A DNA stretch of 11,897 nt from Candidatus Cloacimonadota bacterium (lineage in GTDB: Bacteria; Cloacimonadota; Cloacimonadia; JGIOTU-2; B8-G9): assembly GCA_003647765.1 (NCBI GenBank), contig QMNM01000014.1, positions 1-11,897 of the forward strand, given 5' to 3'. Below the pieces are notes generated by a model. That model saw only the letters and a program-made list of their open reading frames with translations. It made no database searches and was not told the origin of the DNA. Positions 1-8,570 of this stretch are shown here, piece after piece. A program made the translations under genes and the position numbers. Numbering within the stretch: position 1 is the stretch's first letter; every line of letters starts with the position of its first letter.

Positions 1-767
1 AGGTCTTTTACCAGCCCTTTTGGTTTTCCATTTGTATACATAAAAAGAGGCCTTGCGAGTTTGTATTCTCCAGAAACTACTGTTTTATTACTCGGTAAGA
101 CATTATCAATTCTTAGAGCTTTAACATCAGCAGAAAGATATCCAAGTCCTATGTAGCCAATTGAACCGGGAGTTTGTGACACAGTTGTTGCTACTGCTTG
201 GTTTGAAGCAAGCATCAGTGCACCATCTCTGACCTTATCACCTTTTAAAACTAACTTTTTAAATACCTCAAAAGTGCCTGATGCAACATCTCTTGAGACC
301 ACAACAATAGTTCCAGATTCTCCTCCCACATCTCGCCAATTGCTTATTTTTCCAATATAAATATCTTTTAATTGAGAGAGAGTAAGTGCTTTTACTGTGT
401 TATCAGGATGCACAACTATAGCAATGCCATCTTTTGCAACAATTGTCTCTACGGGATTAATGCCTTTTTCTCGTGCTTTTTTTAATTCTTTTGTTTTCAT
501 TGGTCGTGAAGCATCAGCAATATCACATGTGCCATCAATAAGTGCTGCAATACCAACTCCAGAGCCACCACCTCTTACAGAAATATTGGCTTCTGGATGG
601 ATATCCATAAATGTCTCTGCTGTCTTCTGTGCTATTGGTAATACAGTAGTAGAACCAGTAAGGGTAAGAGTATTTGACTTTTTCTTTGCCCAGGGCCATT
701 GGAATGCAAAAACCTGGGTTGTGATAAGCAGGAGTATTCCTGCAATTAGTAGACTTTTTGTTTTCAT
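1..767 (-). CDS. pstS: Phosphate ABC transporter substrate-binding protein PstS (3' end outside window)
   Basis: Periplasmic high-affinity phosphate-binding protein that delivers phosphate to the PstCAB importer. The first 255 codons are present and the frame stays open to the left edge, so the C-terminus is missing. Residues 1-21 form a signal peptide (MKTK, hydrophobic core to about 18, TQVFA cleavage). The PstS family is recognised by TGSTTVLP at 37-44, RGGGSGVGI at 65-73, SRPM at 87-90 and SRDVASGTFE at 158-167. The GST, GSG and SGT segments match the phosphate-coordinating loops of the family. The ATG at 767 is preceded by AAGGAG at good spacing. It lies 95 bp downstream of the porin-like gene on the same strand, separated by a repeat hairpin, and is probably co-expressed with it from the Pho-box promoter (inference). 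The pstCAB genes would be expected past the left edge. It could be a SphX-type paralogue, but the ligand loops are standard. Confidence 0.93.
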   Translation of the reverse strand, partial: MKTKSLLIAGILLLITTQVFAFQWPWAKKKSNTLTLTGSTTVLPIAQKTAETFMDIHPEANISVRGGGSGVGIAALIDGTCDIADASRPMKTKELKKAREKGINPVETIVAKDGIAIVVHPDNTVKALTLSQLKDIYIGKISNWRDVGGESGTIVVVSRDVASGTFEVFKKLVLKGDKVRDGALMLASNQAVATTVSQTPGSIGYIGLGYLSADVKALRIDNVLPSNKTVVSGEYKLARPLFMYTNGKPKGLVKD

Positions 768-862: not shown

Positions 863-1855
863 TTACAGTTTTGTTGAAAATTCCCAGCGGAGTTGTGCTA
901 TAAACTTATCTTTTGAATCTTTGCTGGAATCTTCGTAAGAAGTATTCTCATAATTAACTTGTAACATCACCGCTGGTTTCCCTTTTGCTCTTCGCATAAT
1001 ATAGTAGTTAATCCCACCAATTATAAGAGTTTGTTTGTCATTATCCTCATCAGTATTAGGCTCCCAGTTATCATAACGAGCAACAAGTTCAAACTTATCT
1101 GTTAATTTTACAATTGGCATAATCATAAATCCTTGCCCAACAGTACCATCATCCTCTTTTGACAAAAACTCAAATTGAATATCCAAAGGACCGAATGCCA
1201 ATCTCCCTACCGCTGCATAAGCGGAATAATCTGTTTTATCAGTCCCCTTTTTCTTTGTGTAGTAAGAACCACCAATAGTAATCCCTGAAATTGGAATGAA
1301 TCGAAGATTCGCAAGATAAGCCGGACTTGTATTTACATTATCACCTGCTTTTTTATAACCTTCACCATTAGTAACAGCCAGTGCATACTCTCCCATTCCA
1401 TTCGGAATATAACCATATAGAGCAATTCCATAATCAGTAGAGCTTATGAACTTATACTTATCTGAAGGTGCTTTCTCCATTACAACATAAGTCCAATCAT
1501 AGATAGTTCCAAAGTAGTTCTTTAGTAGTCCAAATGTGAATTTACTTTCTGGAATAGGAATAAGATTTTTGAAATCAAGGTATGCATATTTGAGTTTCAC
1601 TCCAACACCATGAACATCTTCATCTTTGTCGCTTGAGAAGAAATCCAGATTAAATCTACCACTGATATCATCCGAGAACGTGTGGTTTAATCGGAAATAC
1701 CCTCTTTCTAAAGAGAAGGTATTTGTTTCATCTTTCTCATAAGTATACCTGTTCCAGAGATACATCTCCAGTTTGGTCTCGCCTGCAATTGCGATACTAC
1801 TTGTTAAGAACATTAGCAATAGTGTGAGTAAATACCAACTTTGCTTTTTTTTCAT
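863..1855 (-). CDS. Outer-membrane beta-barrel porin, phosphate-selective porin (OprP/OprO)-like
   Basis: A 330-aa predicted outer-membrane protein, probably a channel for anions such as phosphate. Residues 1-24 form a signal peptide (MKKKQ, a Leu-rich core, SSIAIA). The rest alternates aromatic and polar residues like amphipathic beta strands: LEMYLWNRYTYEKD, FSLERGYFRLNHTF, GRFNLDFFSSD, VKLKYAYLDF, GIALYGYI, LANLRFIPISGITIGGSYY, FELVARYDNWEP and a closing IAQLRWEFSTKL. No transmembrane helix is visible. The final residue is Leu rather than the usual aromatic, although Trp and Phe lie just before it. The ATG at 1855 has AAAAGGAG upstream. It sits between the Pho box and pstS, which supports a role in phosphate uptake. 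Barrel proteins diverge fast, so the OprP/OprO label rests on fold features plus context; the substrate is inferred. Confidence 0.75.
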   Translation of the reverse strand: MKKKQSWYLLTLLLMFLTSSIAIAGETKLEMYLWNRYTYEKDETNTFSLERGYFRLNHTFSDDISGRFNLDFFSSDKDEDVHGVGVKLKYAYLDFKNLIPIPESKFTFGLLKNYFGTIYDWTYVVMEKAPSDKYKFISSTDYGIALYGYIPNGMGEYALAVTNGEGYKKAGDNVNTSPAYLANLRFIPISGITIGGSYYTKKKGTDKTDYSAYAAVGRLAFGPLDIQFEFLSKEDDGTVGQGFMIMPIVKLTDKFELVARYDNWEPNTDEDNDKQTLIIGGINYYIMRRAKGKPAVMLQVNYENTSYEDSSKDSKDKFIAQLRWEFSTKL

Positions 1856-1896: not shown

Positions 1897-1902
1897 ATTA
1901 TA
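1897..1902 (-). promoter_or_regulatory. -10 element (TATAAT) of the porin-pstS promoter
   Basis: A perfect TATAAT on the minus strand, about 42 nt upstream of the porin start codon. No good -35 box is found at 17 nt spacing (CTACGA is there instead). That fits a promoter activated by a PhoB-type regulator, where operator repeats replace the -35 box. The nearest operator unit ends 8 nt upstream. Confidence 0.65.
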
Positions 1903-1910
1903 CTTCAAGA

Positions 1911-1950
1911 GTATTAATTTCGTAGAAGGATTGTGTTAATTTTGTGTTAA
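1911..1950 (-). promoter_or_regulatory. Pho box: four 7-nt units in 11-bp phase
   Basis: On the minus strand the units begin at 1950 (TTAACAC), 1939 (TTAACAC), 1928 (CTTCTAC) and 1917 (TTAATAC), each exactly 11 nt apart. The first two are identical and extend to TTAACACAA. Tandem 7-nt repeats on an 11-bp period are the hallmark of OmpR/PhoB-type operators: E. coli PhoB uses CTGTCAT-like units and Bacillus PhoP uses TTAACA-like units. These resemble the latter. The regulator encoded at 4513-5193 is the obvious candidate binder (inference). Confidence 0.72.
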
Positions 1951-1952
1951 GA

Positions 1953-1982
1953 TAAAAGCCCTCTAGTAGAAACCAGAGGGCT
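1953..1982 (-). terminator. Intrinsic terminator after the sigma factor gene
   Basis: The stem pairs 1957-1964 with 1975-1982 (AGCCCTCT with AGAGGGCT, 8 perfect pairs) across a 10-nt loop. On the minus strand it is followed by a short T-rich tail (TTTTAT, overlapping the stem's last base). It lies 38 nt past the sigma gene's stop and just before the Pho box, so it ends the regulator-kinase-sigma transcription unit and insulates the porin promoter. Confidence 0.75.
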
Positions 1983-2019: not shown

Positions 2020-2538
2020 CTATTCTGACTTATATTTGTGTTGTTGAATCCTTCTTAATCTCCTCAATCCTTTTTCTTTTATCTGCCTTACACGTTCTCG
2101 TGGCAAATCCAAGATTTTAGATATTTGAGTTAAATCATAAGAATTATTATCAGCCAATCCATAAAGTAAGGTAAGAACCTTTTTTTCAAGTTCTGGAAAA
2201 TCTTCAAGGTTGGCAAATGTTTGCTGATTATATTTGATGTTTTCGGTAGTAGTTTTATTTTCAACCTTTGAGATTTTTATATTTTCGTTCAGAGATAGAG
2301 CATTTAATGATGTCTTTCTTTCTCTTTCCAATGCTTCTAATATTCTTTTTTTTATCCAATATGTTGCATAAGTAGAGAATTTAGTCCCTTTCTTTGGGTC
2401 AAATTTTTCAATAGATTCCCACAGACCAATAAGTCCATCCTGAATTAAATCATCTAATGGAATACCATAATCTTTATATTTATTTGCGATGCTTTTTATA
2501 AGTGGAAGGTTTTCTTTAATAATTTCTTCTTTTTTCAT
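2020..2538 (-). CDS. Small sigma-70 family RNA polymerase sigma factor (regions 2 and 4 only)
   Basis: A 172-aa sigma factor directing RNA polymerase to a subset of promoters. Region 2 covers about residues 10-76: LPLIKSIANKY, PLDDLIQDGLIGLWESIEKFDP, then FSTYATYWIKKRILEAL, the core-binding and -10-reading part. Region 4 covers about 113-165: FPELEKKVLTLLYGL, then a helix-turn-helix with LPRERVRQIKEKGLRRLRRI, the -35-reading part. The 36-residue linker (77-112) is polar and does not look like region 3; region 1.1 is also absent. Region 2 resembles housekeeping SigA/RpoD types more than ECF factors. The ATG at 2538 is chosen because GTGAGG lies 9 nt upstream as ribosome-binding site; a GTG five codons earlier falls inside that site. 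It follows the PhoR-like gene after 209 bp of palindrome-rich DNA and ends in an intrinsic terminator. No anti-sigma gene is visible. A link to phosphate control is positional only. Confidence 0.88.
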   Translation of the reverse strand: MKKEEIIKENLPLIKSIANKYKDYGIPLDDLIQDGLIGLWESIEKFDPKKGTKFSTYATYWIKKRILEALERERKTSLNALSLNENIKISKVENKTTTENIKYNQQTFANLEDFPELEKKVLTLLYGLADNNSYDLTQISKILDLPRERVRQIKEKGLRRLRRIQQHKYKSE

Positions 2539-2562
2539 CTGAAAATACCTCACCGCACCCGT

Positions 2563-2747: not shown

Positions 2748-4511
2748 TTAGGCGAGAGACTCGCCTACTCCATAATAAGGAATAGTTATAATAAATTTTG
2801 AGCCTTCCCCTACTTTACTTTCAACATCTATTTTTCCATTATGAGCAAGCACAATGTGTTTTACGATAGAAAGTCCCAATCCTGTTCCACCCAACTTTCT
2901 GGAACGGGACTTATCAACCACATAAAATCTCTCAAATATTCTTGATATATCCTCTTTGGGGATACCTATCCCTGTGTCTTGGACTTCAATCTTTATATCA
3001 TATTCATGATGAGATATCTTTATAGCAATCTGTCCTTCTTCAGTATATTTTATCGCATTGTCTATTAAGTTTATAAACATCTGCTCAAGCAGAAACGGAT
3101 CTGCTTTTATATGAGAATACTTCTCTGGTATATCTAATTCAAAATCCAATTCTTTATCTTTTAATTGCTTCTCAAAAATTTTGATAATATCTTTAATCAT
3201 AACTTCCAAATCAACATCTTTTATTTCTATGCCGAGATGGGTCTCAAGATTAGAAAGCAAAAGAAGGTCTGAAACTATGTTAATCAATCTATCTGTATTT
3301 GACCTTATGATTTGCAGGAATCGTTTTTGCCCGGCATCTGCCTCTTCCTCCAATGTTTCTGCAAATCCTTTTATTGCAGTAAGGGGCGTTCTCAATTCAT
3401 GGGCTACATTGGCAACAAAATCCGCCTTTACCCTTTCTACTTGTTTAAGCTCGGTTATATCATGTAAGACCACTATTATCTTTTTCCCTGAATCTTCTGG
3501 AACTAACGCACAAGTCCCAAAATAAACTTTTTCACCAAGTTGAATTTCACGAGTTTTGGGCTCACCACTTTGAGATACAGATTTTACCAATTTATCAATA
3601 TCTACATTTTGTAATACCTCCCAATATCGTTTATTATGTAGTTGTGTCTCATCTGAAACACCTACCACATCCCAAAAATTCCTGTTTGATAAAACAATCT
3701 TTCCTTCCCTATTGAGAACAACTAAACCTTCAACCATTGATGATATAATTGCCTGAAGTTCCTCTCTTTCTGCGGTTAATCTGTCAAATGAACTCCGCAA
3801 TCCACGTGCCATCTCATTTATTGCATTTGAAAGTTTACCTATCTCGTCTTTTCTTTTTGTAAATGTTCTCGTTGCAAAATCTCCATTTTTGATTTTTTCT
3901 GCTGCATTGGCTATCTCCTTTATTGGTTTTGTGAAAGTGCGTGATGAAACAATTGAGAATAATAAAACAACGATGGTCAATACAATAGCTAAATAAGCAA
4001 TCTTTTTATTAACAGTACCAAGGCTCTTTTTAATCTCTGGAATAAAAGAACTTGTTCTGACAACTCCTAATATTTTATCATTTTCTTTAATTGGAATAGC
4101 AACATACAGCATCTTCTCTTTGACTGTTGAACTATATCTGATTTTTGTTCCTATTTTGCCTTGCAATGCTTGGACAATCTCTGGTCTTGTTGAATGGTTT
4201 TCCATTTTGTATGGGTTTTTTTCTGAATCTCCAATAACTACACCATCTTTTCTTATGATAGTAATTCTGGTATTTATCCTTTTTCCAATCTCTTTTACAA
4301 GAGTATCTAACTCCTCAATATTTCCAGAAACTATTAGACCTGTAACCACATTTTCTATTAGTTCAGCTTGTTCCTCAAGATTTAACTTTACAGTATTTAA
4401 ATAATGTTTTTTTATCTCCCTTGAAGCAAAGAATACAATAAGAGAAGTGGTCAAAACAATGATGAGAAAATATCTAAAAAACTGTTTCCACATTATCCCC
4501 ATTCGTCTCAT
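2748..4511 (-). CDS. phoR: PhoR-type sensor histidine kinase
   Basis: A 587-aa membrane histidine kinase that should phosphorylate the adjacent PhoB-type regulator. Order of parts: transmembrane helix about 11-29 (FFRYFLIIVLTTSLIVFF), extracytoplasmic sensor domain about 30-168, second transmembrane helix about 170-190, HAMP about 191-243, PAS about 250-355, HisKA with FVANVAHELRTPLTAIKGF (phosphoacceptor His371), and an ATPase domain with N box NLIDNAIKY (Asn485), G1 box DTGIGIP (512-518) and G2 box GGTGLGLSIV (541-550). All catalytic motifs are intact. TM, HAMP and PAS ahead of HisKA match the PhoR architecture, with a larger sensor domain than E. coli PhoR. The ATG at 4511 is preferred: it lies 1 nt after the regulator's TAG with GGAG upstream; a start 8 codons earlier would overlap the regulator. 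The last residues come from a palindromic repeat. The phosphate signal is inferred from the neighbours. Confidence 0.9.
   Translation of the reverse strand: MRRMGIMWKQFFRYFLIIVLTTSLIVFFASREIKKHYLNTVKLNLEEQAELIENVVTGLIVSGNIEELDTLVKEIGKRINTRITIIRKDGVVIGDSEKNPYKMENHSTRPEIVQALQGKIGTKIRYSSTVKEKMLYVAIPIKENDKILGVVRTSSFIPEIKKSLGTVNKKIAYLAIVLTIVVLLFSIVSSRTFTKPIKEIANAAEKIKNGDFATRTFTKRKDEIGKLSNAINEMARGLRSSFDRLTAEREELQAIISSMVEGLVVLNREGKIVLSNRNFWDVVGVSDETQLHNKRYWEVLQNVDIDKLVKSVSQSGEPKTREIQLGEKVYFGTCALVPEDSGKKIIVVLHDITELKQVERVKADFVANVAHELRTPLTAIKGFAETLEEEADAGQKRFLQIIRSNTDRLINIVSDLLLLSNLETHLGIEIKDVDLEVMIKDIIKIFEKQLKDKELDFELDIPEKYSHIKADPFLLEQMFINLIDNAIKYTEEGQIAIKISHHEYDIKIEVQDTGIGIPKEDISRIFERFYVVDKSRSRKLGGTGLGLSIVKHIVLAHNGKIDVESKVGEGSKFIITIPYYGVGESLA
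2749..2767. repeat. Perfect 8-bp palindrome overlapping the kinase 3' end
   Basis: TAGGCGAG, loop AGA, CTCGCCTA. It encodes the last kinase residues (VGESLA) and supplies two bases of its TAA stop, so the repeat appears to form the C-terminus of the protein. Confidence 0.65.
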
Positions 4512-4512
4512 T

Positions 4513-5193
4513 CTAATCTCCAAATTTATAGCCAATTCCTCTTACTGATTTAATTAATTTGCTATACTCACCCAGTTTTTTCCGCAGTTGTGTAATATGC
4601 ACATCAATAGTTCTATCAAGGACGATTTTATCTTCTCCCCACAATTTATCAAGAAGTTTATCTCTTGAGAATACCCATCCAGGTCGCTCAGCAATAATAG
4701 AAAGCAATTTGAATTCTGTTGTTGTTAGATTAATTTCTTTGCCTTTGATTGTTACTTTATACTTTGCCAAATCTATCATCAAGTCATTTCTTTTAATTAT
4801 TTTTGGCTTTTCGGTTTTGGCTTCTGCTCGTCGTAATACTGCTTTTATCCGAGCAATAAGTTCTCTTGGGCTGAAAGGTTTCACGATATAATCATCAGCT
4901 CCTAATTCCAAGCCGACAACTTTATCTGTTTCAGTTCCTTTAGCTGTAAGCATTATTATTGGAATAGTGGCAGTTCGTTCATCTCTTTTGATAATTCGGC
5001 AGATTTCTAAGCCATCTATCTCTGGTAACATCAAATCTAAAATTATTAAGTCCGGGCATTTTGCTTCAAGATAGGATAGAAAAGTTTCACCATCATAGAA
5101 CTGCTTTACTTTGAAATTTTCTTTCTCCAAATGGTGAGTTATAAGTTCTACAATATCAGGTTCGTCATCAACAACCGCGATTAGTTTAGTCAT
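4513..5193 (-). CDS. phoB: PhoB/OmpR-family response regulator
   Basis: A 226-aa transcription regulator, the normal length for the family. The receiver domain (about 1-122) has the acidic pocket Asp9, Asp10 and Glu11, phosphoacceptor Asp53 (LIILDLMLP), Thr83 (IIMLTAKG) and Lys105 (YIVKPFSPREL). The C-terminal winged helix (about 128-226) contains LTTTEFKLLSIIAERPGWVFSRDKLLDKLWG and the family-typical DRTIDVHITQLRKKLG with a terminal SVRGIGYKF. The start is set at the ATG at 5193 because GGGAG lies 6 nt upstream; a start nine codons earlier has no site and would include it. It is followed after 1 nt by the kinase gene, a classic two-component operon. It probably binds the phased repeats at 1911-1950, by family knowledge plus context. 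DrrA- or PhoP-type naming would be equally valid. Confidence 0.93.
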   Translation of the reverse strand: MTKLIAVVDDEPDIVELITHHLEKENFKVKQFYDGETFLSYLEAKCPDLIILDLMLPEIDGLEICRIIKRDERTATIPIIMLTAKGTETDKVVGLELGADDYIVKPFSPRELIARIKAVLRRAEAKTEKPKIIKRNDLMIDLAKYKVTIKGKEINLTTTEFKLLSIIAERPGWVFSRDKLLDKLWGEDKIVLDRTIDVHITQLRKKLGEYSKLIKSVRGIGYKFGD

Positions 5194-8323: not shown

Positions 8324-8518
8324 ATGGAATGTAATCAGAGAAAAAATATGACAAAATGTAACTGTACTTATCCTTGTAACAAAAAGGGTATTTGTTGCGA
8401 GTGTATAGCTTATCATCGTAGTTTAGGAGAGCTCCCTGCTTGTTATTTCCCAAAAGATGCTGAGCGAACTTATGACCGCAGTATAGAATATTTTATAAAA
8501 ATTTATAATGAGCGATAG
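8324..8518 (+). CDS. Small cysteine-rich protein, DUF6485-like
   Basis: A 64-aa protein with eight cysteines (3, 12, 14, 18, 24, 25, 27 and 40). The core runs [20 protein letters not shown], followed by [23 protein letters not shown]. This pattern matches what I recall of the uncharacterised DUF6485 family. The CxC, CC and CxC spacing suggests binding of zinc or an Fe-S cluster, but no function is known. The ATG at 8324 is preferred because GGAGG lies 5 nt upstream; an ATG four codons earlier overlaps that site. There is no signal peptide or membrane helix. It is probably monocistronic: 102 bp after the aminotransferase gene and followed by a hairpin with a T-run. Confidence 0.82.
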
Positions 8519-8570
8519 TTAGATTTAATTATACTACAATTTGGTAGTTCTGTATAAGTAAGTAGTATTC

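Follow-up and report, generated by a model that had tools for sequence, protein, structure and literature searches.

A conserved four-unit Pho-box promoter upstream of porin and pstS genes in Cloacimonadota, with a small sigma factor encoded beside phoR

Genes of the locus and architecture of the promoter

The window analyzed here, an 11,897-nucleotide stretch of DNA from a Candidatus Cloacimonadota bacterium, carries on its minus strand, in the order of reading, murA, phoB, phoR, a sigma factor gene, a terminator hairpin, a four-unit repeat, a TATAAT element, a porin gene, and pstS. The product of the response regulator gene (4513..5193, minus strand) has the PhoB model TIGR02154 as its best match, and since its score of 267.7 bits falls below the equivalog cut-off of this NCBIfam model (296.2), we refer to it as a PhoB-family regulator rather than as PhoB proper. 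The adjoining gene (2748..4535, minus strand) encodes a PhoR/PnpS-type sensor kinase with sCache, HAMP, PAS, HisKA, and HATPase domains (NF046044 PnpS, 403.9 bits against a cut-off of 400). The third gene of the cluster (2020..2541, minus strand) encodes a short stand-alone sigma-70-family factor that has regions 2 and 4 and is devoid of region 3. An intrinsic terminator with an 11-pair stem and a T tail (1957..1982, minus strand; -19.4 kcal/mol, z -4.7) follows, which presumably ends the upstream phoB-phoR-sigma operon. Beyond the repeat lie an outer-membrane porin gene, whose product weakly matches the phosphate-selective porin O/P family Porin_O_P (863..1855, minus strand; PF07396, 21.4 bits against a cut-off of 20.9), and pstS (3..767, minus strand; PBP_like_2; TIGR02136, 266 bits, over the cut-off), the 3' end of which is cut by the contig edge. 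Elsewhere in the window, a cysteine-rich open frame of ~60 aa (8340-8520, plus strand) is located between an aminotransferase gene and an ABC transporter ATPase gene.

The repeat occupies positions 1911..1950 and, together with the -10 element TATAAT (1897..1902), is on the same minus strand as the porin and pstS genes. On this strand the element reads 5'-ATC TTAACAC AAAA TTAACAC AATC CTTCTAC GAAA TTAATAC TCTTGAAG TATAAT-3', with the four units TTAACAC, TTAACAC, CTTCTAC, and TTAATAC at 1950-1944, 1939-1933, 1928-1922, and 1917-1911, respectively. The units of 7 bp are separated by linkers of 4 bp and thus form 7+4 direct repeats with an 11-bp period, an arrangement also found in the relatives, and the TATAAT begins 8 nt past unit 4. 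No hexamer located 16-18 nt upstream of TATAAT agrees with TTGACA beyond 3 of 6 positions, and the promoters listed for the window include none that uses the TATAAT at 1902-1897. The preliminary description of this region, which gave coordinates only, had recorded the four 7-bp units repeating exactly every 11 bp, 8 nt, a TATAAT, and no -35 hexamer; read on the minus strand, this account is exact. It had not mentioned the conservation of unit 3, the G that immediately precedes the -10 element (base 1903, position -13), or the sigma factor gene located between phoR and the box, all of which are considered below.

In relatives with intact contigs, the genes downstream of the element follow the order porin-pstS-pstC-pstA-pstB-phoU, the first of the two pstA-like genes in this series being recognized as pstC. 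In the genome of the window, pstA-pstB-phoU were found on contig C202, and the operon that starts in the window is most likely porin-pstS-pstC-pstA-pstB-phoU, continuing onto that contig. This gene order supports the earlier proposal that the element controls the porin and pstS genes.

Conservation of the element and distribution of its sites

Of the 28 positions in the four phased units, 23 agree with TTAACAC, a level that was unreached in 4 Mb of Markov-1 random sequence. A matrix of 57 columns was then derived from 21 orthologous sites, the window and its two closest relatives being left out; with this matrix, the window site scored 32.5 bits, the second-best position in the window scored 0.0, and the maximum in random sequence was 15.9 bits (60 x 100 kb, both strands, that is 12 Mb). 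Porin matches were identified in 56 of 98 genomes; 30 porin loci were fetched, and 25 of them, including the window, were assessable because the porin gene comes first and the sequence before it is long enough, the other five having the porin inside a different operon (two) or being cut by contig ends (three). All 25 assessable loci carry the 57-nt element, ungapped and in register, with the same 8 nt between unit 4 and the -10 element. An origin of the element as a chance repeat within AT-rich sequence would have in its favor that two-unit matches are common: a two-unit IUPAC pattern gave 69 one-mismatch matches in the genome of the window, yet the reversed pattern gave 109, so that there was no enrichment, and a loose two-unit pattern in the window itself occurred at chance level only. 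As the two-unit pattern proved too weak a test, it was replaced by the 57-nt model. The significance resides in the four-unit phasing plus the -10 element, not in two-unit matches; this combination scores 16 bits over the best of 12 Mb of random sequence, and the chance origin, to which we assign a negligible probability, is refuted by this score and by the 25/25 conservation.

Across the relatives, unit 3 has the form (C/T)TTATA, or YTTATA, and unit 1 is the loosest of the four. The alignments thus indicate that unit 3 is a conserved variant rather than a product of decay. The sequences of the two identical and two related units that had been distinguished in the window are correct, and the description of unit 3 as merely related is to be amended in this respect.

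A sequence-only model of the 57-nt element was used to scan the 98 genomes. Because the model was built from porin promoters, its porin matches are not independent, whereas its non-porin matches are. At E<0.001 the scan gave 65 sites, distributed over 52 of the 98 genomes, compared with ~0.1 expected from the rough E-values. In the fetched loci, the matrix had 82 matches versus one for the reversed matrix. Sites outside the model training precede the phosphate genes phoB (L162, L221), phoU (L220), and pstS (L220, L227, L237), as well as genes for Na/Pi cotransporters (L225, L233) and further porins (L224, L227). The phoB genes of some relatives are therefore among those with a box, and phoB of the window has no box of its own. 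Across the 98 genomes, the Pho box and pstB were both present in 46 and both absent in 40, with six genomes having only the one and six only the other. In the genome of the window, which is a fragmented draft of 360 contigs with 88.8% completeness, only one site is strong (E 1e-6; the next at E 0.1), probably because pstSCAB-phoU forms a single operon. The enrichment before other phosphate genes that had been anticipated for this motif is accordingly seen across the relatives, and the genome itself contributes one strong site only. Judged from its genomic positions, the motif in the relatives marks a real Pho regulon. At 79 PhoB-like loci outside the phylum, the matrix gave nothing convincing.

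In relatives, sites were also found upstream of genes for secreted proteins that carry a type IX sorting tail. Three such proteins (L215, L216, L219) are under strong Pho boxes, and one of these has a lamin-tail domain; in genome G002, the box of a type IX-tail protein is kept though the PhoB orthologue, pstB, and the small sigma factor were not found. In seven genomes, a gene for a protein of ~790 aa that combines a PHP domain with a GT4 glycosyltransferase is under a Pho box from outside the model training (L148:809-3196, L153, L222, L223, L230, L232, L240); the genome of the window has no full-length match to it. This protein is likely a phosphate-saving enzyme and may act in phosphate-sparing glycolipid synthesis or membrane-lipid remodelling.

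The PhoB-family regulator and the linked sigma factor

In the E. coli PhoB-DNA structure, Arg201 forms a hydrogen bond with guanine, the contacts to thymines are made by Thr194 and Val197, and Arg219 reaches bases located between the half-sites (PMC3973317). Residues 197 and 219 are kept in all regulators of the relatives, and residue 194 in nearly all of them. Residue 201 is Gln in the regulator of the window, Asn in most relatives, and Gln or Lys within the order to which the window belongs. The change at this residue matches the change of the box from CTGTCA to TTAACA, a correlation between protein and operator sequences. The residues of the regulator thus fit the motif, and the product of 4513-5193 stands as the best candidate for binding the box, as had been suggested; its membership of the PhoB family agrees with this assignment, and genome G068, which has pst but lacks both a PhoB orthologue and a strong box, serves as a natural negative control. 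That the acidic patch known from E. coli (Glu177, Glu191) is missing was considered as a sign of a new sigma partner, an idea that was rejected, as most of the outside-phylum PhoB-like proteins compared also lack the patch.

The small sigma factor gene lies directly 3' of phoR in 31 loci, in open frames of 150-226 aa; in other families it is found just upstream of phoB, divergent from phoB, or beside pst. Matches at E<=1e-40 with frames of this size were detected in 54 of the 98 genomes, and they are followed by a gap down to the housekeeping RpoD at ~1e-26, so that by sequence comparison the small sigma factors are a separate family clearly apart from RpoD. A phylum search of 124 genomes revealed this sigma factor in 64, and it was found near phoB in none of the 79 PhoB-like loci outside the phylum. 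The protein passes the broad superfamily model TIGR02937, which also covers non-ECF sigma-70 factors. Its two-domain build, with regions 2 and 4 only, is that of ECF factors, but its region 4 is RpoD-like (PF04545), and its nearest solved relatives are RpoD, SigA, and RpoS; its closest resemblance is to regions 2 and 4 of RpoD/SigA and not to ECF factors. Its predicted structure has two ordered parts with a low-confidence linker between them, and its region 2.4 reads YWIKKRIL, compared to WWIRQSIT in the RpoD of the same genome.

A G directly precedes the TATAAT-like element at all 25 porin sites. When everything downstream of unit 4 was masked, 23 of 26 further sites scoring >20 also had G at -13. 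For comparison, the same 98 genomes contain 113 exact TTGACA-N17-TATAAT strings, 14 of which have G at -13 by a hand count; this control set exceeds its reversed counterpart (61) only 1.9-fold, so that about half of it is background. The polymerase at Pho promoters may therefore read something that ordinary -10 elements lack. Two other controls for the -13 position were discarded: loose -35/-10 matches showed no enrichment for T at -7 and hence are mostly chance, and tRNA promoters offered one usable case. The T at -7 was also compared, since its weakening in Pho promoters might point to a sigma factor without region 1.2, but the difference was not significant and the idea was dropped. The low number of exact consensus strings suggests that classic sigma-70 consensus promoters are rare in the phylum. 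An A in place of G before the -10 element was observed at L227:7385, which precedes pstS, and at L279:6866, in family f11; the porin promoter of L227 keeps the G, and in family f11 the sigma factor is not in its usual place after phoR.

Proposed mechanism, known Pho systems, and significance

The element and its conservation, the gene arrangement, the recurrence of the box before phosphate genes, and the fit of the regulator residues to the motif lead us to regard it, with high confidence, as a PhoB-type Pho-box promoter that drives porin-pstSCAB-phoU under phosphate limitation via the PhoR-like kinase and the PhoB-like regulator. Set against this reading are the score of the regulator below the PhoB cut-off, the single strong site in the genome of the window, and the lack of a box before its phoB. 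We infer that the regulator is phosphorylated and binds the box and that the system responds to phosphate. Upon phosphate limitation, the kinase (2748-4535) would phosphorylate the regulator (4513-5193), which would bind head to tail on the four 11-bp-phased units at 1911-1950 in place of a -35 element and bring RNA polymerase to the TATAAT at 1897-1902. As a result, the operon porin-pstS-pstC-pstA-pstB-phoU would be switched on, by a polymerase carrying either the housekeeping sigma factor or the small sigma factor encoded after phoR.

Several OmpR-family regulators bind direct repeats, and the box might accordingly be the site of another OmpR/PhoB-family regulator, for instance a WalR/YycF-like one, that controls phosphate uptake genes. 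The kinase of the window also scores 400 bits with WalK; this is below the WalK cut-off of 725, whereas the kinase exceeds the PnpS cut-off and PhoB is the best model for the regulator. Since, in addition, the targets across relatives are phosphate genes and the regulator gene clusters with pst in many loci, we consider the involvement of such another regulator highly improbable.

Compatible with the Pho-box promoter is a refinement in which the small sigma factor is dedicated to it as the partner of PhoB, the G before TATAAT being its signature. Its gene immediately follows phoR in 31 loci and is close to phoB or pst in others, the family is separate from RpoD, the divergence of region 2.4 and the G at the Pho sites point in the same direction, and PhoB and PhoP have precedents for working with alternative sigma factors (PMC4971064, PMC4415409). 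The box and the small sigma factor co-occur nearly one to one, with both present in 49 of the 98 genomes, both absent in 41, and only one of them in three and five genomes; however, these genomes are related, the co-occurrence may only reflect joint retention or loss of the pst-pho module, and G002, G084, and G087 have the box and no detected sigma factor. The sigma factor could also serve other promoters, and the G could mark activated promoters in general, in a comparison whose control is about half background. We therefore see the dedicated sigma factor as a credible refinement that comes close to an even chance. In its full form, which we advance tentatively, the phylum would possess a Pho switch of three components: phoB and phoR would share their operon with a sigma factor of their own, an RpoD derivative lacking regions 1 and 3, which would recognize G-TATAAT at promoters where the four-unit box replaces the -35 element, the activator and the sigma factor being made and working together.

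The Bacillus subtilis PhoP box consists of TT[ACT]ACA repeats, and its TTAACA unit and 11-bp phasing resemble the box of the window; unlike the present hosts, B. subtilis is a monoderm, and we know of no PhoR-linked sigma factor in it. In this species, PhoP acts together with sigma-A and sigma-E (PMC4415409). The resemblance to the Bacillus site had been called notable for a diderm, a remark that does not hold, as diderm cyanobacteria have similar SphR boxes, which comprise at least three repeats of CTTAACCT with 3-bp linkers and an 11-bp period (PMC1906773). The two boxes share this period, the TTAAC core, diderm hosts, and the location upstream of pst genes, and a third unit reading TTTATATT is likewise present in the SphR box before phoA (PMC1906773). 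The box described here differs from the SphR box in its four units, the fixed YTTATA of unit 3, the fixed 8 nt to the -10 element, and the conserved G at -13. With the E. coli PhoB box it shares 7+4 direct repeats that replace the -35 element upstream of pst and a PhoB-family regulator (PMC4415409). In contrast to the E. coli box, which has CTGTCAT units on an 11-bp period, the window units are of the TTAACA type, residue 201 of the regulator is Gln or Asn instead of Arg, and the distance to the -10 element is 8 nt rather than about 10 (PMC1906773). In Pseudomonas aeruginosa, sigma-VreI needs PhoB to bind its promoter (PMC4971064). If the small sigma factor is indeed dedicated, both systems would combine PhoB with an alternative sigma factor at Pho-box promoters (PMC4971064); VreI, however, is an ECF sigma factor with its own anti-sigma factor, has its gene in vreAIR rather than beside phoBR, and acts at promoters with a proposed -35 element, whereas here a short RpoD-like sigma factor adjoins phoR. 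Literature searches, which mainly covered freely accessible papers, found no phoBR-sigma operon and no Pho regulation in Cloacimonadota.

The type of switch is already known; what differs here is the fixed four-unit form, the G-TATAAT, and a sigma factor encoded with phoBR, and the interest lies in the sigma factor rather than in the box. The findings give an entire phylum that has been poorly studied a concrete phosphate regulon and an operator that can be searched for, and they suggest how the specificity of PhoB shifts between CTGTCA and TTAACA boxes, through residue 201 and a change from G to A. Should the small sigma factor turn out to be dedicated, the switch would represent a two-component system equipped with a sigma factor of its own.
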